A stretch of DNA of 64,000 nucleotides from the NCBI RefSeq assembly GCF_000060345.1, contig NC_008571.1, positions 310,001 through 374,000 of the forward strand. Reading direction: 5' to 3'. This DNA is from Christiangramia forsetii KT0803 (GTDB lineage Bacteria; Bacteroidota; Bacteroidia; Flavobacteriales; Flavobacteriaceae). The position numbers were made by a program, and so were the translations under genes. How positions within the stretch are numbered: position 1 is the first letter of the stretch; each line of letters starts with the position of its first letter. Positions 55,047-62,713 of this stretch are shown here, piece after piece. The notes beneath the pieces are model-generated. The model saw only the letters and a list, made by a program, of their open reading frames with translations, made no database searches and had not been told where the DNA came from.

Positions 55047-56306
55047 TTAGTTCAGTTCAAATGCATCTTTTACTTTATCTACATAATCGAGTTTTTCCCA
55101 GGTAAATAATTCTACTTCCCTGGTTATTTTTCCTTTATACGGACTCTCAAAAATCTTAGTAACCTTTCGCGGTTCTTTTCCCATATGTCCATAAGCAGCA
55201 GTTTCTCGATAGATTGGATTTCTTAATTTCAATCTATCCTCGATTGAAGACGGGCGCATATCAAAAATTTCTTTAACTTTTTCAGCGATCTGGCCGTCGG
55301 ATAAATCTGTATTATTTTTTCCATACGTATATACCGAAATTGAAGTTGGTTCAACAACTCCAATAGCATACGAAACCTGAACCAGAATTTCCGGAGCTAC
55401 GCCTGCGGCTACCAGGTTTTTTGCAATATGTCTGGAAGCGTACGCCGCAGAACGGTCTACTTTTGAAGGATCTTTTCCGGAAAATGCACCACCACCGTGA
55501 GCACCTTTACCACCATACGTATCTACGATGATCTTTCTACCGGTAAGTCCGGCATCGCCATGAGGCCCACCAATTACAAACTTCCCGGTTGGATTAATAT
55601 GATATACGATATCGTCATTAAATAATTTCTGAACATATTCCGGCAATTGTTTTTTAACCCTCGGGATCAAAATCTCAATAATATCCTTTTTGATCTTAGT
55701 CAACATCTTTTCATCATCGGCATCAAAATCATCATGCTGGGTAGAAACTACAATGGCAACTATTCTTTCCGGAACGTTCTCGTCACTATATTCAATAGTT
55801 ACCTGACTTTTAGAATCCGGTCGCAGATATTCAATTTCTTTTCCTTCGCGTCTTAGTTTCGCAAGTTCAATAAGGATCTTGTGAGAAATATCAAGAGCAA
55901 GAGGCATGTAATTTTCAGTTTCGTTGGTTGCGTAACCAAACATCATTCCCTGGTCACCAGCTCCCTGTTCCTCTTTATTTCCACGATCTACACCCTGGTA
56001 AATATCCTGAGATTGTTCGTGGATCAAAGAAATAACCCCGCAAGAATCTCCGCTGAATTTATAAGCTCCTTTAGTATAACCAATATCGTTAATCACGTCC
56101 CTTGCGATATTTTGAACATCTAAATAAGTATTACTTCTAACTTCACCGGCCAATACCACCTGTCCCGTAGTTACCATAGTTTCACAGGCAACTTTAGATT
56201 CACCATCAAATGCAAGAAAATTGTCTAATAAAGCATCACTAATCTGATCTGCAATTTTATCTGGGTGTCCTTCAGAAACACTTTCTGAAGTAAATAAATA
56301 AGCCAT
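55047..56306 (-). CDS. metK: S-adenosylmethionine synthetase
   Basis: 419 residues, somewhat longer than the E. coli enzyme (384). Makes SAM from methionine and ATP. GHPDK at 13-17, the [15 protein letters not shown] loop and the [16 protein letters not shown] phosphate loop are signatures. The roughly 145-base 5' UTR contains a SAM-II-like aptamer, indicating feedback by its own product. Divergent from the metYX operon. Confidence 0.97.
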
Positions 56307-56376
56307 TCAATTACTTTTTAGGTTAATAAGAACGGAAAAATTTGACGTGAAAGGCTAAATGGAGTGTAAAAACATT

Positions 56377-56440
56377 CTGCTTTAGCATTTTAAAATACCT
56401 TTTATAAGTATTAGGGTTGCAATCAGTCAAATCTATCCCT
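56377..56440 (-). ncRNA. SAM-II riboswitch aptamer in the metK 5' UTR
   Basis: Minus-strand RNA. P1 is AGGG (56440-56437) with CCCT (56416-56413). The loop GATTTGACTGATTGCAA carries the conserved SAM-II core. The pseudoknot pairs CTG (56426-56424) with CAG (56379-56377) and GCA (56420-56418) with TGC (56387-56385) within TGCTAAAGCAG. An extra small hairpin (AATAC/GTATT) separates the two parts. The conserved GATTT...TTGCA and GCTAAA elements match SAM-II RNAs. It ends about 70 bases before the metK ATG. No terminator follows, so control is probably translational. Confidence 0.82.
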
Positions 56441-56455
56441 TTCAGTATGTAAGCA

Positions 56456-56485
56456 CAAATGTATAAAAATTCATATCATAGCAAA
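56456..56485 (-). promoter_or_regulatory. metK promoter
   Basis: TTTG (56485-56482), 18 bases, then TACATTTG (56463-56456) on the minus strand. It places the start near 56450, just before the riboswitch. Confidence 0.75.
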
Positions 56486-56554
56486 TTGATTTAACTTCAT
56501 TTTATCCTATTTGAAGTTTTAATAAGATTTGTTGAACCGTAAGGAGATTTGTTT

Positions 56555-56675
56555 TAATAGCCATTTGGGCGTTGCGCTTCGCCTTAAGTGGCTTGCGCCG
56601 GGCTTTTACGGCTCGCTTCCCGATAAAAAGATCGGGAGAGCTCAAACAAACCGCTCAATCCCTAACGCAAAGAAT
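56555..56675. repeat. GC-rich structured intergenic repeat (GGGCGTT...CCCTAACGC type)
   Basis: About 120 bases, markedly GC-richer than the surroundings. It runs from TTTGGGCGTTGCGC to TCCCTAACGCAAAG, with imperfect inverted ends (TTTGGGCGTT/AACGCAAA). Inside are GGGCTTTTACGGCTCGCTT and the hairpin TCCCGATAAAAAGATCGGGA. Comparable GGGCGTT...TCCCTAACGC blocks are familiar between genes in Flavobacteriia. An 83-codon frame across it (56529-56780) was rejected as non-coding. Confidence 0.6.
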
Positions 56676-56768
56676 AGGTTCCAGATAAATCAAAGAACAG
56701 GTATTATAATTTCAGAATCCGTAAAAAAAGCAACCAAAAATTTAATTTTCGCAATTCTTCTCCAATTA

Positions 56769-56801
56769 TTTGGATATTAAAAAATTCCGTGCATATCTTT
56801 G
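56769..56801 (+). promoter_or_regulatory. Promoter of the methionine operon leader
   Basis: TTTG (56769-56772), 21 bases, TATCTTTG (56794-56801), a consensus promoter. Transcription would begin near 56808, about 13 bases before the first leader ATG. Confidence 0.8.
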
Positions 56802-56820
56802 TAATTCACAGAACGAAATA

Positions 56821-56889
56821 ATGATCAGAACAATTTGCAATATGATGTGTATGATGCCGGAAAATTCCGCAGCGCACTCTATTGCATAA
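56821..56889 (+). CDS. Met/Cys leader peptide 1 (22 codons) of the met operon
   Basis: ATG at 56821 to TAA at 56887-56889. The first twelve residues are MIRTICNMMCMM: Met 1, 8, 9, 11, 12 and Cys 6, 10, then PENSAAHSIA. Five Met and two Cys in 22 codons is far above chance. It lies 20 bases after a consensus -7 element and 21 bases before a strong intrinsic terminator. GCAGCG at 56869-56874, inside codons 17-18, can pair with CGCTGC at 56917-56922 in the 5' terminator arm. A ribosome stalled on Met or Cys codons would leave it free, so readthrough follows. The peptide itself probably has no function. Confidence 0.82.
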   Translation: MIRTICNMMCMMPENSAAHSIA

Positions 56890-56910
56890 AACTGAAAAGA
56901 TATATTTGCA

Positions 56911-56942
56911 AAAAGCCGCTGCCAACCGCAGCGGCTTTTTTT
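56911..56942 (+). terminator. Attenuator terminator 1
   Basis: AAAAGCCGCTGC-CAACC-GCAGCGGCTTTT ending in seven T. Its 5' arm is the target of the antiterminator pairing from leader peptide 1. Confidence 0.88.
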
Positions 56943-56956
56943 ATGTCTTAATTTTT

Positions 56957-57094
56957 GTCACACTGAGCTTAGTTAAGCTTTTGAAATAAAATAAACCGTC
57001 ATCCTGAACTTGATTCAGGATCTATTCAGAAGCTGAATCAAGTTCAGCTTGACGAAAGGAAAAATAAAATGTCAGGCTGAGCGAAGTCGAAGCC
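56957..57094. repeat. Intergenic repeat cluster between the two attenuators
   Basis: Several repeat modules: GTCACACTGAGCTTAGTTAA; GTCATCCTGAACTTGATTCA followed by GGATC; an inverted AAGCTGAATCAAGTTCAGCT then TGACG; and CAGGCTGAGCGAAGTCGAAG. These match repeats elsewhere in the window. They separate attenuator 1 from leader peptide 2. Confidence 0.65.
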
Positions 57095-57111
57095 ATTTAA
57101 ATAATTAAGAA

Positions 57112-57207
57112 ATGAAAACAAGAGTAATAGCAAATATGATAATGTCTAACATGATGGCGATGTGTATGTGTCGCATGAGCAGCTATTACCAAAACTTGAG
57201 AATGTAG
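57112..57207 (+). CDS. Met/Cys leader peptide 2 (31 codons) of the met operon
   Basis: ATG at 57112-57114 to TAG at 57205-57207. Residues 9-22 read MIMSNMMAMCMCRM. In all there are nine Met (1, 9, 11, 14, 15, 17, 19, 22, 31) and two Cys (18, 20) in 31 codons. Segment 1 (GTAATAGC, 57124-57131) can pair with segment 2 (GCTATTAC, 57182-57189), both inside the ORF. Segment 2 can instead pair with segment 3 (TGGTAATAGC, 57243-57252) at the terminator. Stalling at the Met block covers segment 1 and frees segment 2; finishing at the stop covers segment 2. No separate promoter was seen, so it probably shares the transcript of leader 1. Confidence 0.85.
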   Translation: MKTRVIANMIMSNMMAMCMCRMSSYYQNLRM

Positions 57208-57271
57208 AATCTAGTTATAGAGTTCAATTCGTAAAGTCCCCCTGGTAATAGCATATCAGGGGGACTTTTTT
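57182..57271 (+). promoter_or_regulatory. Attenuator 2: antiterminator and terminator
   Basis: Terminator: AAGTCCCCCTG (57234-57244) pairs perfectly with CAGGGGGACTT (57257-57267), then T residues to 57271. The competing antiterminator is ten perfect pairs between GCTATTACCA (57182-57191) and TGGTAATAGC (57243-57252), which uses the loop and the top two pairs of the terminator stem. A pseudoknot holding both is disfavoured because only six bases would span the ten-pair helix. The arrangement is the classical 1:2, 2:3, 3:4 scheme. Confidence 0.8.
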
Positions 57272-57281
57272 ATTAAGGAAT

Positions 57282-57314
57282 AAACCTCCCAGGTTTTCAA
57301 AACCTGGGAGGTTT
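57282..57314. repeat. Perfect 16-bp inverted repeat before metY
   Basis: AAACCTCCCAGGTTTT (57282-57297) and AAAACCTGGGAGGTTT (57299-57314) with one base between. It has no T-run, so it is not an intrinsic terminator. It resembles a widespread intergenic palindrome and lies 30 bases before the metY start. Confidence 0.75.
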
Positions 57315-57344
57315 GAAAAAAAAGCTTTAAAAAATATCAAGATT

Positions 57345-58637
57345 ATGAGCACTCAAAATTTTTCAACTAAGGCACTTCATGCAGGACATGATACTACACA
57401 GAACGGTGGAACCAGAGCAGTTCCTATTTATCAAACAAGTTCCTATGTTTTTGATGACAGCGATCACGCTGCCGATCTTTTCTCCCTGGCTAAACCGGGA
57501 TTTATTTATACCAGGTTAAACAATCCAACAAATGATGTTCTGGAGCAGCGACTTGCTGCAATAGAAGGAGGAATAGGCGCGGTGGTCACTGCTTCAGGAA
57601 CTGCCGCAATCAATACCGCTTTATTAACTTTACTCAGAGCAGGAGATCATATTGTAGCTTCCAGTAGTTTATATGGAGGAACTTTCAATCTTCTAAAAAA
57701 CACCCTTCCAAGATTTGGAATTACCACGACGTTCGTAAATCCTCAGGATCCGGAAAACTTCAAAAAAGCGGCTAAGGAAAATACGCGTGTATTTTTTGTA
57801 GAATCATTGGGAAATCCGAAACTGGATGTCCTTGATCTTAAAGGAATTTCTAAAGAAGCAAAGGCCTTTAAAGTACCATTTATAGTGGATAATACGGTTG
57901 CAACCCCATATTTACTAAATCCAATAGAGCATGGTGCCGACATTGTGATCCATTCCCTTACCAAATATATTAACGGGAACGGAACTTCGCTTGGAGGAGT
58001 GATCATCGATGCAGGTAAATTTGACTGGGCTAACGGGAAATTCCCTGAATTTACTGAACCTTCTCCGGGATATCATGGGCTTGTATATCATGATGCTTTA
58101 GAAGAGGCCGCTTTTATAGCGAAGGTTAGAATCGAAGGTTTGAGAGATCACGGTGCGGCATTGAGTCCGTTCAATGCATTTCAAATAATTCAGGGACTGG
58201 AAACTTTGAAAATTAGAATTAAAGAACATAGTAAAAATGCACTGGAACTTGCTAAGTGGCTTCAGACACAGGAAGAAGTGGAATGGGTAAATTATCCCGG
58301 CCTGGAAGACAACAAGTATTATAAGCTGGCCAAAGAATATTTACCTGAAGGACAAAGCGGGCTCGTCACTTTTGGAGTTAAAGGAGGATTTGAAGCAGCC
58401 AAAACAGTAGTAGATGCATCTAAAGTTTTCTCTCTGCTCGCGAATATTGGAGACACAAAGTCGCTTATCATTCATCCGGCAAGCACTACCCATCAGCAAT
58501 TAACTGAGGAAGATCAGAAATCTACCGGAGTTACTCAGGATCTAATCAGGCTTTCCGTGGGACTTGAAGATGTGGAAGATCTTAAGACAGATTTAAAACA
58601 GGCTTTTTCACAAATTAAAAAGAAATCATTGGTTTAA
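57345..58637 (+). CDS. metY: O-acetylhomoserine sulfhydrylase (aminocarboxypropyltransferase)
   Basis: 430 residues, the usual length of MetY. Combines O-acetylhomoserine with sulfide (or methanethiol) to homocysteine (or methionine). PLP Lys in VIHSLTKYINGNGTSLGG, plus SSYVFDDSDHAADLF, YTRLNNPTNDVLEQRLAAIE in part and the C-terminal LIHPASTTHQQL. It is the first structural gene after the tandem attenuators, so supply of Met/Cys is expected to control it directly. Confidence 0.95.
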   Translation: MSTQNFSTKALHAGHDTTQNGGTRAVPIYQTSSYVFDDSDHAADLFSLAKPGFIYTRLNNPTNDVLEQRLAAIEGGIGAVVTASGTAAINTALLTLLRAGDHIVASSSLYGGTFNLLKNTLPRFGITTTFVNPQDPENFKKAAKENTRVFFVESLGNPKLDVLDLKGISKEAKAFKVPFIVDNTVATPYLLNPIEHGADIVIHSLTKYINGNGTSLGGVIIDAGKFDWANGKFPEFTEPSPGYHGLVYHDALEEAAFIAKVRIEGLRDHGAALSPFNAFQIIQGLETLKIRIKEHSKNALELAKWLQTQEEVEWVNYPGLEDNKYYKLAKEYLPEGQSGLVTFGVKGGFEAAKTVVDASKVFSLLANIGDTKSLIIHPASTTHQQLTEEDQKSTGVTQDLIRLSVGLEDVEDLKTDLKQAFSQIKKKSLV

Positions 58638-58747: not shown

Positions 58748-59761
58748 ATGTTACAAGAATTAACCATAGAAAATTTCACCAATTCTGCAGGTACTGCTCA
58801 GGATATCCACCTTAGCTATCAGTTCTTCGGAAAAAAGCCTTCCGAGGCTCCGATAATCTTGGTGAATCATGCACTTACTGGAAACTCGCTGGTAACGGGA
58901 AGTAAAGGATGGTGGAAAGATCTAATCGGAAAAAATAAATGTATTGATATTGATAAATTTTGCATCCTGGCTTTTAATATTCCGGGAAATGGTTTTAAAG
59001 GTCACGAAGACCAGTTCTTTGAAAATTATAAGGAATTCAGGCTAAGGGATATTGCAGAGATCCAGGCACTAGCTCTTGAAAAACTGAATGTCAACAAACT
59101 TTTTGCCATTATTGGTGGGAGTATTGGTGGTGCATTGGCCTGGGAACTTGCAGTTTTAAAACCTCAATTGGCTGAGAATATAGTCCCCATCGCAACCGAT
59201 TATAAATCGACTGACTGGCTGGTTGCTAATTGCAGAATTCAGGATCATATATTAAATAATTCTTCCAATCCCGTTCATGATGCCAGAATGCATGCGATGA
59301 CTTTCTATCGTACGCCGCAATCCTTGGCTCAAAAGTTTGAAAGTAAAAGAAATTCTAAAGATCAGATTTTTGAAGTGGAGAACTGGTTGTTGCACCATGG
59401 TGAAAAGTTAAAACATCGGTTTACATTAAAATCTTATAAGCTGATGAATCATTTGCTTACCACCATAGACATTAGCAACGGCACAGGAAATTACCTGGAA
59501 GCAGCGAGTAAAATTCAGGGGAGTATTCATGTTGTAACGGTCAATTCAGACTTGTTTTTCCTGGCTGAAGAGAACTGGAATACCTATGTAGAGCTTTCAC
59601 TTTTAAAGAATAACATCAGCATTCATGAGATCAAATCCATACACGGTCATGATGCATTTTTGATTGAGACAGATCAATTAAACAGATTTTTAAAACCAAT
59701 TTTCCAACTAACAAAAAAAGATTATGAAAACGATTCATCTCGCTCTGTTTGGGCCGGGTAA
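58748..59761 (+). CDS. metX: Homoserine O-acetyltransferase
   Basis: 337 residues of alpha/beta-hydrolase fold. Acetylates homoserine with acetyl-CoA. ILVNHALTGNS near the start and the nucleophile loop IIGGSIGGALAWELA are characteristic, and the catalytic His is in SIHGHDAFLIE. The last 12 codons overlap hom in another frame (38 bases), giving a tail NDSSRSVWAG. Confidence 0.93.
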   Translation: MLQELTIENFTNSAGTAQDIHLSYQFFGKKPSEAPIILVNHALTGNSLVTGSKGWWKDLIGKNKCIDIDKFCILAFNIPGNGFKGHEDQFFENYKEFRLRDIAEIQALALEKLNVNKLFAIIGGSIGGALAWELAVLKPQLAENIVPIATDYKSTDWLVANCRIQDHILNNSSNPVHDARMHAMTFYRTPQSLAQKFESKRNSKDQIFEVENWLLHHGEKLKHRFTLKSYKLMNHLLTTIDISNGTGNYLEAASKIQGSIHVVTVNSDLFFLAEENWNTYVELSLLKNNISIHEIKSIHGHDAFLIETDQLNRFLKPIFQLTKKDYENDSSRSVWAG

Positions 59762-60797
59762 AGTAGGAAGCAAGTTGCTGGAACAACTTTCCATTTCTGA
59801 AGAACACTTAAAAAAGTCTTCCGGAATTAATGTAAAATTAATCCTGGTAGCCGATTCTTCTCATGCGCTTTTAAATCCGAAAGGCATAAAGTCCAGCTGG
59901 AATAATGGGTTCAAATCAGGTGCAAAGAGATATTCTTTTAATGATATAAAAGATTATTTCAGAGAAAATGAATTTAAGAATCTGGTTTCCATAGATACGA
60001 CGGCCAGTGAAGATTTTCCGCAGAAATATATTGCATTAGTAAATGCAGGGAGTCATATCATTGCCGCCAATAAAGTAGCCAATACATTGTCTTCTGAATT
60101 TTATAAAGAGCTAAGAAAAGAGTTGAAAAGGAATAATAAAAAATTTATATACGAAACCAATGTGGGAGCTGGCCTTCCAATTGTTGAAACACTTAGAAAT
60201 CTGCATCTTTCAGGAGAAAAAGTGACTAGAATACGAGGAGTTTTCTCGGGATCATTGAGCTATATTTTCAATAAATATTCAGAAGATGAAAAAGATTTTT
60301 CAGAAGTCTTGAAAGAAGCCGGGATTCTTGGTTATACCGAGCCAGATGCGCGTATTGATTTAAGCGGAAAGGATGTTGGACGAAAATTATTGATCCTTGC
60401 CCGAGAATTGGAACTGAATAAAGAACTGACAGATGTGAGAATTCAGTCTTTAATTCCGAAGCAATTGAATGGAGATACCAGTCTTGAAGAATTTAATAAA
60501 AGAGTAGAAGAACTGGATCTTCATTTTGGGAGTTATAAAAAAGATAAGTCAGAAGATGAGGTTTTACGGTATGTTGGAGAATTAAACGCTGTGAGTGGAG
60601 AACTGGAAGCAAAGCTTATTAAGGAGCCTAAAACATCGGTTCTTGGACAAATAGAAGGAGCCGATAATATTTTTGAGATATATACCGAATCTTATAAAGA
60701 CCTGCCTTTAGTGATTCGTGGAGCCGGTGCCGGAGCAGATGTTACGGCAAGGGGAGTATTTGGCGATATTTTAAAAATATCTGAACGTTTAAATTAA
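59724..60797 (+). CDS. hom: Homoserine dehydrogenase, monofunctional, without ACT domain
   Basis: 357 residues. Reduces aspartate semialdehyde to homoserine. Rossmann start MKTIHLALFGPGKVGSKLLE, then IIAANKVANTL, YETNVGAGLPIVETL and the LGYTEPDARIDLSGKDVGRK signature. It lacks both an aspartokinase part and a C-terminal ACT domain, so amino-acid feedback is unlikely and control would be by the leader. It overlaps metX by 38 bases. Confidence 0.95.
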   Translation: MKTIHLALFGPGKVGSKLLEQLSISEEHLKKSSGINVKLILVADSSHALLNPKGIKSSWNNGFKSGAKRYSFNDIKDYFRENEFKNLVSIDTTASEDFPQKYIALVNAGSHIIAANKVANTLSSEFYKELRKELKRNNKKFIYETNVGAGLPIVETLRNLHLSGEKVTRIRGVFSGSLSYIFNKYSEDEKDFSEVLKEAGILGYTEPDARIDLSGKDVGRKLLILARELELNKELTDVRIQSLIPKQLNGDTSLEEFNKRVEELDLHFGSYKKDKSEDEVLRYVGELNAVSGELEAKLIKEPKTSVLGQIEGADNIFEIYTESYKDLPLVIRGAGAGADVTARGVFGDILKISERLN

Positions 60798-60804
60798 GAT
60801 TAAG

Positions 60805-62019
60805 ATGGAAAACCTACAAGCTACCGGGATAGATGAAAATGACTGTAATGGATATTCAGAGGAACATTTTGAAACTATTGCGGTAAGAACCCAGAGTGCC
60901 AGAACACAATTTCAGGAGCATTCTGTGCCGCTGTATCTTACTTCGAGTTATATTTTTGAAGATTCTGAAGATATGAGGGCCAGTTTTGCTGAGGAGAAAG
61001 ACCGGAATATTTATAGCCGATTCACAAATCCTAATACTTCTGAATTTGTGGAGAAGATCGCCAGGATGGAAGGTGCAGAGACGGGTTATGCATTTGCAAC
61101 CGGAATGGCAGCAGTTTTTTCCACGTTGGCAGCTTTACTGAATAGTGGAGATCATATTGTATCTGCGAGATCGGTTTTTGGATCTACCCATGGCTTGTTT
61201 ACCAGGTATTTTCCGAAATGGAATATTTCTCACAGCTATTTTGATGTGAATAAGCCGGAAACTATTGAGGATTTGATCAAACCTGAAACTAAAATTTTGT
61301 TTGCCGAATCTCCAACAAATCCGGGAGTTGATATTCTGGATCTTGAATTTTTAGGTCAGATCGCAAAAAAGCACCATCTAATACTCATTATTGATAATTG
61401 CTTTGCTACCCCATATATTCAAAATCCAATAAAATTCGGGGCAGATCTGGTGATCCATTCAGCAACTAAATTAATAGATGGTCAGGGAAGAGTGCTTGGT
61501 GGGGTAACTGTGGGAAGAGAAGATTTGATAAGGGAAATTTATCTTTTTAGTAGAAATACTGGGCCGGCGCTTTCACCATTTAATGCCTGGGTTCTTTCAA
61601 AAAGTTTAGAAACTCTGGCAGTTCGTTTGGACAGGCATTGTGAAAATGCATTGAAAGTTGCTGAGTTTTTAGAGGCGAATAAAAATATTGAGCAGGTGAA
61701 ATATCCATTTTTGAAATCTCATCCTCAATATGATATAGCAAAGAGACAGATGAAGTTAGGAGGAAATGTGGTGGCATTCCAAATAAAGGGGGGAGTGGAA
61801 GCAGGAAGAAAATTTATAGATAAACTTTTGCTATGCTCCAGATCTGCAAATCTTGGAGATACAAGAACCATAGTGACTCATCCTGCCTCGACAACTCATA
61901 GCAAACTTTCGCATGATGAACTTAGTTCCGCGGGGATTGCCGAAGGATTGGTGCGAGTATCTGTTGGACTTGAAAATGTGGATGATGTGATTAAGGATTT
62001 GAAACAGGCTTTAGAGTGA
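60805..62019 (+). CDS. metZ: Trans-sulfuration enzyme, O-succinyl/O-acetylhomoserine sulfhydrylase MetZ-like
   Basis: 404 residues of the Cys/Met-metabolism PLP family. PLP Lys in IHSATKLIDGQGRVLGG, a pattern typical of MetZ rather than cystathionine gamma-synthase. FETIAVRTQSARTQFQEHS and the end THPASTTHSKL, SVGLENVDDVI are complete. Last gene of metY-metX-hom-metZ (7-base gap). It gives the operon a second sulfhydrylase beside MetY. A MetB-type role is not excluded. Confidence 0.9.
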   Translation: MENLQATGIDENDCNGYSEEHFETIAVRTQSARTQFQEHSVPLYLTSSYIFEDSEDMRASFAEEKDRNIYSRFTNPNTSEFVEKIARMEGAETGYAFATGMAAVFSTLAALLNSGDHIVSARSVFGSTHGLFTRYFPKWNISHSYFDVNKPETIEDLIKPETKILFAESPTNPGVDILDLEFLGQIAKKHHLILIIDNCFATPYIQNPIKFGADLVIHSATKLIDGQGRVLGGVTVGREDLIREIYLFSRNTGPALSPFNAWVLSKSLETLAVRLDRHCENALKVAEFLEANKNIEQVKYPFLKSHPQYDIAKRQMKLGGNVVAFQIKGGVEAGRKFIDKLLLCSRSANLGDTRTIVTHPASTTHSKLSHDELSSAGIAEGLVRVSVGLENVDDVIKDLKQALE

Positions 62020-62299: not shown

Positions 62300-62713
62300 A
62301 TGCTTTCTAAAAAGACCAAGTACGGAATTAAGGCTCTGGCATATATTGCCAGAAAAAAAGACAGAAAACCTGTCCAGGCATCTGAAATCTCTGAAAGTGA
62401 AAATATTTCACAGAAATTCCTTGAAAGTATTCTTCTGGAATTGCGAAAATCAGGATTTCTAGGTTCAAAAAAAGGTAAGGGCGGCGGCTATTATCTCATT
62501 AAAGAACCAGCTGAAATCAAAATGACAGCTGTTATCCGGGTTTTGGAAGGACCTATCGCGATGGTGCCTTGTGTAAGTCTTAATTATTATGAGAAATGCA
62601 ACGATTGTCCAGATGAAAAAACCTGTTCGGTCCACAAATTAATGATTCAGTTAAGGGATGCGTCTTTAAATGTACTTGGTGAAAACACTTTAGAAGATAT
62701 TGCTTTTGTATAG
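62300..62713 (+). CDS. Rrf2-family transcriptional regulator (CymR/IscR-like)
   Basis: 137 residues. Winged helix start MLSKKTKYGIKALAYIARKK, recognition region SEISESENISQKFLESILLE in part and the wing KKGKGGGYYLI. Three Cys (CVSLNYYEKCNDC) with CSVHK further on could bind an Fe-S cluster or sense sulfur status. It lies directly upstream of the sulfate-reduction operon and is its probable regulator, like CymR-type control of cysteine supply in Firmicutes. Confidence 0.93.
   Translation: MLSKKTKYGIKALAYIARKKDRKPVQASEISESENISQKFLESILLELRKSGFLGSKKGKGGGYYLIKEPAEIKMTAVIRVLEGPIAMVPCVSLNYYEKCNDCPDEKTCSVHKLMIQLRDASLNVLGENTLEDIAFV

Follow-up and report, generated by a model that had tools for sequence, protein, structure and literature searches.

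The intergenic region between metK and metY

The region described here lies between metK and metY in Christiangramia forsetii KT0803, whose analysed genome is one contig of 3,798,465 bases. It is part of a window of 64,000 nucleotides (the whole stretch of DNA that was analysed; NC_008571.1, positions 310,001 to 374,000 of the forward strand), and coordinates refer to this window unless another sequence is named. The two genes are divergent, with metK on the minus strand and metY on the plus strand, and a tandem leader region separates them. Read 5′ to 3′ toward metY, this region holds a promoter, a leader open reading frame (ORF) with its terminator, a spacer with a dispersed repeat, a second leader ORF with its terminator, and a palindromic repeat, after which metY–metX–hom–metZ follow (Table 1). 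Each leader ORF together with its terminator is called a device below.

Table 1. Features of the tandem leader region and of the operon behind it, in window coordinates
Feature	Position	Strand	Basis or remark
Promoter for whole leader: TTGG (about −33) and TATCTTTG (about −7)	56770..56801	+	sequence, genus alignment
Leader ORF 1, MIRTICNMMCMMPENSAAHSIA, Met/Cys run MMCMM at codons 8–12	56821..56889	+	sequence
Region 1 of device 1, TGCAATA	56836..56842	+	can pair with 56880–56886; weak single-locus statistics
Region 2 of device 1, antiterminator word GCAGCG within ORF	56869..56874	+	pairs with CGCTGC 56917–56922
Upper antiterminator helix of device 1, left side TTGCA	56882..56886	+	pairs with 56907–56911
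Terminator 1 (regions 3:4), 13-pair stem and T run	56910..56940	+	includes antiterminator partner CGCTGC 56917–56922
Dispersed intergenic repeat, spacer between devices	56998..57023	+	19 genome places, ≤2 mismatches
Leader ORF 2, MKTRVIANMIMSNMMAMCMCRMSSYYQNLRM	57112..57207	+	sequence; 24/24 genus loci
Region 1 of device 2, GTAATAGC	57124..57131	+	can pair with 57182–57189; not general in relatives
Region 2 of device 2, antiterminator word GCTATTACCA within ORF	57182..57191	+	pairs with 57243–57252
Terminator 2 (regions 3:4), 15-pair stem and T run	57233..57268	+	includes antiterminator partner TGGTAATAGC 57243–57252
Palindromic repeat hairpin between terminator 2 and metY	57283..57313	none	4 genome places, ≤2 mismatches
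metY, O-acetylhomoserine sulfhydrylase	57345..58637	+	NCBIfam TIGR01326 above cut-off
metX-like homoserine acyltransferase	58748..59761	+	best NCBIfam match TIGR01392, 183.1 bits, below cut-off of 500
hom, homoserine dehydrogenase	59724..60797	+	below-cut-off match to bifunctional aspartate kinase/homoserine dehydrogenase models, C-terminal part
metZ-like O-succinylhomoserine sulfhydrylase family enzyme	60805..62019	+	NF006003, 512.7 bits against cut-off of 522

Both leader ORFs are rich in Met and Cys codons. The first has 22 codons, with five Met (start included) and two Cys, and the second has 31 codons, with nine Met (start included) and two Cys. Internal Met and Cys account for 6 of 21 residues in leader 1 (binomial p = 4e-5) and for 10 of 30 in leader 2 (p = 2e-8), the background of 3.2% being an assumed value in both tests. 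Terminators 1 and 2 are the two strongest of seven terminator-like sites in 56300–57700, where shuffled sequences average 1.0. A word within each ORF can pair with part of the terminator behind it, forming six pairs (GCAGCG/CGCTGC) in device 1 and ten perfect pairs in device 2; in Christiangramia the latter helix takes in just the upper portion of the terminator-2 stem, and in Flavobacterium roughly half of that stem. A sequence-only reading of the region had named these leaders, terminators and competing helices, together with a consensus promoter, and each of them was confirmed.

The hairpin next to metY is probably a dispersed palindrome, and dispersed repeats may be the source of the differing spacer lengths between devices in relatives. 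An Rrf2-family regulator is encoded at 62300–62713, between the met operon and a cysH-like gene, and is a possible separate regulator of sulfate assimilation.

Pairing and spacing in relatives

The metY gene was found in all 24 Christiangramia genomes. Leader 1 and its terminator are present at 23 of the 23 genus loci whose sequence extends that far (one contig ends short of leader 1), and leader 2 at 24 of 24. The comparisons below rest on 58 loci chosen for having a Met/Cys leader, with device 1 in 54, device 2 in 55, and both in 51 (L and G numbers below are our handles for loci and genomes). Loci were left out of these sets because they were weak or short (L099, L126, L154), because they matched genomes already included (L106–L113, L114, L119, L152), or because the script found no leader (L123, L128, L132–L134, L140, L145, L147, L149, L153); L155 is a stub.

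The promoter elements TTGG and TATCTTTG agree with TAnnTTTG, the sigma-A element of flavobacteria (PMC9723704). This single sigma-A-type promoter is aligned within the genus, and TAnnTTTG precedes leader 1 in 44 of the 54 loci, including 23 of 23 in the genus. No TAnnTTTG was found in the spacer between devices when the 51 tandem loci were scanned.

The pairing of word and terminator was examined by counting paired and compensated positions, in 37 of 54 sequences for antiterminator 1 (alignments A1/A3) and in 39 of 55 for antiterminator 2 (A2). The MAFFT alignment A1 mis-registered the Flavobacterium word and was re-anchored as A3 before counting, a choice that favors the pairing, and for this reason the slid controls matter for antiterminator 1. 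In register, 89.0% of its cells are paired, compared with 25–49% (maximum 48.6%) when slid. Three pairs and 19 cells are double-changed and the covariation score is 0.192, values that were each reached by 0 of 500 shuffles. For antiterminator 2, 76.1% of cells are paired, compared with 30–51% (maximum 51.3%) when slid.

Word 1 is a copy of the 3′ arm of its own terminator and tracks lineage changes in that arm. The form GCAGCG is shared by Christiangramia, Salegentibacter, Gillisia and Salinimicrobium; most Flavobacterium have GCAGAG or GCAGAGG, and single loci have GCAAGGGC (L092), GCAGGG (L029) and GCGGGA (L151). The GCAG word lies in frame 0 at 44 of 54 loci, where it is translated as SAA or SAE, and in frame 2 at the other 10, where it is translated as PQR or PQS. 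Likewise, word 2 (GCTATTRCC) occupies one frame at 52 of 55 loci (past the stop codon in L148) and is translated as YY/YC-Q in most; it occupies the other frame in L125 and L144, where it encodes AIAK, and its placement is uncertain in L122. Since the same word appears in different frames, its letters are maintained by RNA pairing and not by the peptide. The upper helix of antiterminator 1 also carries compensatory changes, in L022/L023 (TTACA/TGTAA) and in L150 (TATGG/CCATA). Occupancy of the terminator 5′ arm exceeds that in dinucleotide shuffles (0.547 versus 0.302 and 0.611 versus 0.339). In both devices, then, an antiterminator can be made from leader-ORF RNA and the 5′ side of the terminator, with the case for device 1 being the stronger.

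The distances between codons and words are consistent with a role for the ribosome. In leader 1, the last Met/Cys codon begins 15 nucleotides from the word at 43 loci, 14 at 10 and 18 at one (n = 54), and the word lies 21, 22 and 27 nucleotides from the end of the stop codon at 43, 10 and one of these loci, respectively. The leading edge of a ribosome is about 13 nucleotides past the first base of the A-site codon. A ribosome stalled on the last Met/Cys codon should therefore just free word 1, whereas a ribosome at the stop codon should cover it. In leader 2, the corresponding distance from codon to word is 7 nucleotides at 31 of 55 loci, 12–16 at 21, and 10, 11 and 25 once each. Because of this shorter spacing, the decisive stalls in leader 2 would have to fall on earlier codons. 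When folding ahead of a stalled ribosome was predicted before the 3′ arm is made, every one of the 54 leader-1 loci had at least one Met/Cys codon at which antiterminator 1 exceeded a probability of 0.5, and 53 of 55 leader-2 loci had such a codon for antiterminator 2. Counted by position, this value was exceeded at 336 of 343 Met/Cys positions in leader 1 and at 474 of 516 in leader 2.

An alignment of relatives had been proposed as a check on the sequence-only reading, with hairpins kept in the absence of the ORFs or their Met/Cys codons as the outcome that would speak against it. For the most part, Met/Cys runs, words and terminators have been conserved as a set from genus to genus. Spacing is also kept, strictly for device 1 and less so for device 2.

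Distribution of the devices and of SAM riboswitches

Among named loci of relatives, the first 50 (L106–L155) of 80 were examined. Both Salegentibacter contigs, all six Gillisia, all three Salinimicrobium and 11 of the 15 Flavobacterium contigs carry the two devices; two of the remaining four Flavobacterium contigs have one clear type-2 device each (L121, L122), L150 has type 1 only, and L126 is weak. No leaders were found by the script in contigs of Winogradskyella, Gelidibacter, Paucihalobacter and Muriicola. All four of the no-leader loci that were scanned (L123, L132, L140, L145) carry an S-adenosylmethionine (SAM) riboswitch of the SAM-I class.

Models R1 (device 1) and R2 (device 2) were trained on alignments A1 and A2, so that many of their matches within the family arise by construction. 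In a search of 199 family genera, R1 matches 15 and R2 matches 9 (E ≤ 1e-4), of which G029, G037, G067, G146, G147 and G177 (R1) and G067, G177 and G214 (R2) are new beyond the training sets. Relaxing the threshold to E ≤ 0.01 raises the numbers to 46 and 24, the extra matches probably being mostly chance. Both devices occur in 11 of the 199 genera (G000, G029, G037, G051, G067, G104, G108, G119, G134, G175 and G177). At the order level (E ≤ 1e-4), R1 matches 19 genomes out of 246, from three genera out of 77, and every one belongs to the same family. At the class level, R2 matches 7 of 296 genomes; G628, from another family, has a true tandem ahead of metY, and the match in G553 was rejected since its terminator comes without a Met/Cys ORF. 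The contig L154, labelled Marinilabiliaceae, is similar in appearance. Within the C. forsetii genome, R1 and R2 give one copy each at E ≤ 0.01, and the word-2 pattern matches one other place (L025). Tandem Met/Cys leaders are not special to C. forsetii KT0803.

Two of these loci have unusual surroundings. In G029 (L188 / G029:C26), the contig runs from the tandem leaders into a transposase-like ORF and then ends, and metY starts another contig; an insertion element may lie between leader and metY. A contig labelled as a Bifidobacterium breve metagenome-assembled genome (L124, CALPIE020000196.1) carries a flavobacterial-type metY (80% identity) with tandem leaders, and its label is probably a binning or naming error.

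Methionine biosynthesis is usually controlled by SAM riboswitches, Met T-boxes or repressors. For a family survey, 80 metY loci were taken from a pool of 140 genomes (G000 excluded) with a metY match among the 199. They comprise 60 of the 62 closest metY matches and 20 spread over the rest, so that near relatives are favored, and were picked by match rank and not by the presence of a leader. Of these 80 loci, 67 have SAM-I upstream, 9 have a leader or leaders (six tandem and three single, one of them weak), 4 have neither (one being a 404-base stub), and none has both. This exclusion gives a Fisher p of 3e-9, uncorrected for kinship.

No match to SAM-I (RF00162) was found in the window or in the nine leader-bearing family loci. 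Within the window, Rfam at its cut-offs yields a single match, to a SAM-II riboswitch on the opposite strand, and no T-box was matched there, either at the Rfam cut-off or in a permissive scan. Matches to Thr_leader (24.5 bits against a cut-off of 55, over leader 1), Phe_leader, isrK and STnc40 are far below cut-off and were set aside because they look like generic terminator matches. The SAM-II riboswitch (RF01726, 49.6 bits, 56446–56372, minus strand) lies ahead of metK, back to back with the tandem leaders; a number of relatives have SAM-II upstream of metY as well. The genome does contain a SAM-I riboswitch, 7.6 kb past the window (G000:C1:381646–381752; L250 7646–7752), where it precedes a metH split into two ORFs and then metF. 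There is one SAM-I per genome in 22 of 24 genus genomes, and the two without it are 73% and 67% complete. This organism thus has SAM-II at metK, SAM-I at metH and the tandem leaders at metY–metX–hom–metZ.

Other leader-like units were observed at sulfur and amino acid genes. In the same genome, a weak R2 match (E 0.0017) led to a leader-like ORF, MKHFNKNILSAICMRELSFT (L250 1985–2113), that overlaps a possible antiterminator (TTTCACTTA with TAAGTGAAA in the next terminator) and sits between genes resembling cysN and sulfite reductase, by resemblance only. In a Flavobacterium-group genome (g112), a second, independent tandem of Met/Cys-rich leader ORFs with terminators (L251 8147–8474, minus strand) is divergent from the metY tandem and precedes an EamA transporter and an amino-acid permease; a device-1 unit at L251 2825–5526 lies ahead of a gene for a Cys/Met-metabolism pyridoxal phosphate enzyme that is broken into several frames. 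Also in the Flavobacterium group (g112), a single device-1 unit (L252 1973–2094) upstream of the metY tandem precedes a hexapeptide-transferase (cysE-like) gene, a cysK-like gene and a sulfite reductase cluster. Another family member has a strong terminator hairpin just before a threonine deaminase-like gene (L201, about 1564–1593), possibly a different amino-acid attenuator.

Interpretation and comparison with known systems

A run of Met/Cys codons, an intrinsic terminator, an antiterminator exclusive of that terminator, and a spacing compatible with the ribosome, looser in device 2, are the features of a trp-type attenuator. The best explanation for this pattern is that the metY–metX–hom–metZ transcript carries ribosome-mediated transcription attenuators in series that sense charged tRNA-Met and probably tRNA-Cys, and we consider this highly probable. 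If the leaders are translated, then scarcity of charged tRNA-Met, with Cys probably acting through tRNA-Cys as a second signal, would stall the ribosome in the Met/Cys run of a leader. With the ribosome stalled there, the word near the ORF's end would be available for pairing with the next terminator, at its 5′ arm in device 1 or at the upper 5′ arm and loop in device 2, and RNA polymerase would read on. When the amino acids are plentiful, a ribosome at the leader stop codon would mask the word, the terminator would form, and transcription would end. RNA polymerase would have to clear both devices before metY, so the two read-through probabilities might multiply.

The sequence-only reading had held that ribosome position decides the fold exactly as in trp or his attenuation. 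The features that could be examined do fit the trp type, but the comparison is overstated. The 1:2 pairing proposed for device 2 (57124–57131 with 57182–57189) is present in the sequence but is not general, reaching p < 0.05 in only 17 of 55 leader-2 loci (with one row, L141, mis-registered), and the idea of a universal 1:2 protector was dropped because the pairing is inconstant across loci. The predicted outcome for leader 1 without a ribosome is also mixed and varies between species, with a 2:3 probability below 0.2 in 27 of 54 loci and above 0.8 in 10.

Several other observations weigh against attenuation by both devices. Antiterminator 1 has an unremarkable number of pair types (40 of 500 shuffles), and sliding it by +2 still leaves a covariation score of 0.141 and 13 double-changed cells. 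Over all loci, its upper helix gives a weak test (own 10.9, cross 10.0, shuffled 8.1), with 20% of shuffles attaining the own mean. Covariation in antiterminator 2 is modest (0.139 versus 0.110 in shuffles, 2 of 500); its percentage paired is 76.1 versus 75.0 (20 of 500), and its double-changed pairs number five (47 of 500) and cells eight (63 of 500). Single-locus shuffle tests are passed by only 35 of 54 and 27 of 55 loci, and the counts take related sequences as separate. Leader 2 has its last Met codon 7 nucleotides from word 2 throughout the genus (24 of 24 loci), and a stall there would mask part of the word because the two are so close. In the stalled-ribosome folding, the stop-codon value is zero by construction. 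Flavobacterium psychrophilum (L122 2160–2285) keeps hairpin 1 with a leader 1 that is poorer in Met/Cys and lacks the usual stop codon. Finally, in G440 (L255 3250–3720, minus strand), two hairpins stand behind ORFs in which we read few Met and several Cys codons, ahead of a gene encoding 148 amino acids; these units are a possible relative of the device.

A variant that is compatible with attenuation in series is a two-input gate, in which one device responds mainly to Met and the other to Met and Cys. Leader 1 has a median internal Met/Cys content of 4/2 and leader 2 one of 7/4, and at least one Cys is present in 50 of 54 leaders 1 and in 55 of 55 leaders 2. However, Met and Cys are mixed in both leaders, and because the sets were chosen for Met/Cys-rich ORFs, composition cannot separate the signals; we hold this variant only tentatively.

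It is unlikely that regulation comes from just one device, with the other serving as a constitutive partial terminator or surviving as a relic. Devices do occur singly, at metY in G116, G042 and G146 and at metX-like genes in G214 and G147 (the latter identified by resemblance only), and leader 1 of F. psychrophilum appears decayed. Nevertheless, ORF, word and terminator are kept for both devices in every genus locus that reaches them, and the genera with both devices retain the pair while the spacer length varies.

In nascent-chain arrest, which would use the same hairpins, the leader peptide itself would sense Met, SAM or a sulfur compound and thereby stall the ribosome, in the way that TnaC responds to tryptophan. 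The run in leader 1 is indeed well kept in the genus: it reads NMMCMM at 15 of the 23 loci, NMMMCMM at seven and NMMMRMM at one, the forms differing by whole-codon indels, so that one of the first two is present in 22 of 23. The 15 NMMCMM leaders use TGC or TGT for Cys, vary at codons 13–15 and use all three stop codons, but they were selected by this motif, so its invariance among them is uninformative. Across genera, the order of residues is permuted (NMMCMM, NMCMMM, NMCCMM, MCCRMM, NMSMMM, HMCCMM) while the run stays rich in Met/Cys throughout. Moreover, the N-terminal half of leader 2 is highly variable, and the C-terminal residues track the RNA words and form no peptide motif. We therefore regard arrest as very improbable. 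Terminators are common between genes, the spacer holds dispersed repeats and many single-locus tests are not significant, yet the compensatory changes, frame-shifted words, fixed spacing of 14–15 nucleotides and exclusion of SAM-I at the same gene make unregulated small ORFs with insulating terminators, brought together by chance and shared descent, barely credible.

Returning to attenuators in series, a broader reading is one on which we are evenly divided. In part of the Bacteroidota, a long-conserved pair of aminoacyl-tRNA sensors in series would control the central met operon where sister genera use an S-box. The pair would multiply read-through or gate Met and Cys separately, staying shut until charging of elongator tRNA-Met or tRNA-Cys falls, and in the Flavobacterium group it would have spread into the sulfur amino acid regulon (cysE-like/cysK/sulfite reductase genes and a transporter operon). 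The direction of the exchange between S-box and leader is inferred here. With an S-box at 67 and Met/Cys leaders at 9 of 80 metY loci in one family, nature provides an experiment in swapping a metabolite sensor for a sensor of tRNA charging. The series layout allows testing of whether consecutive attenuators yield multiplicative, and hence steep, control. A puzzle that can also be tested is how the leader gets translated when it is needed, since Met starvation should reduce initiator as well as elongator Met-tRNA.

The mechanism class is already known, whereas the literature search turned up no tandem Met/Cys version that replaces an S-box. Nor did it yield a recognizable description of Met/Cys leader-peptide attenuation in Bacteroidota; Lopatovskaya et al. 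2010, which lies outside it, could hold such a prediction. PMC9723704 suggests leader-peptide attenuation for amino-acid operons of F. psychrophilum that it does not name, but its main text lacks the word methionine and its section 19 names no tandem arrangement. Switching of one gene's control between riboswitch, T-box and leader peptide has been described (PMC2965389).

Like the trp, his, thr and phe attenuators, each device combines a short ORF rich in the regulated amino acid, an intrinsic terminator and a competing antiterminator, with a biosynthetic operon downstream. It differs in its use of Met together with Cys, in the arrangement of two devices in series and in an inconstant 1:2 protector. 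SAM-I (S-box, RF00162) acts from the 5′ leader of the same gene, metY, presumably for the same purpose, but it senses SAM directly and is missing from the nine leader-bearing loci of the 80. The leader peptides of cys operons in Actinobacteria (PMC1262725) resemble the devices in having a Cys-rich ORF ahead of sulfur genes; they differ in using Cys only, and for Mycobacterium that paper reports no conserved terminator hairpins. Finally, Salmonella mgtCBR (PMC3641672) also has two leader devices on one transcript. However, mgtCBR senses two different signals (ATP and proline) through stem-loops that are not typical intrinsic terminators, whereas the two devices described here have the same codon type in both leaders and canonical terminators.

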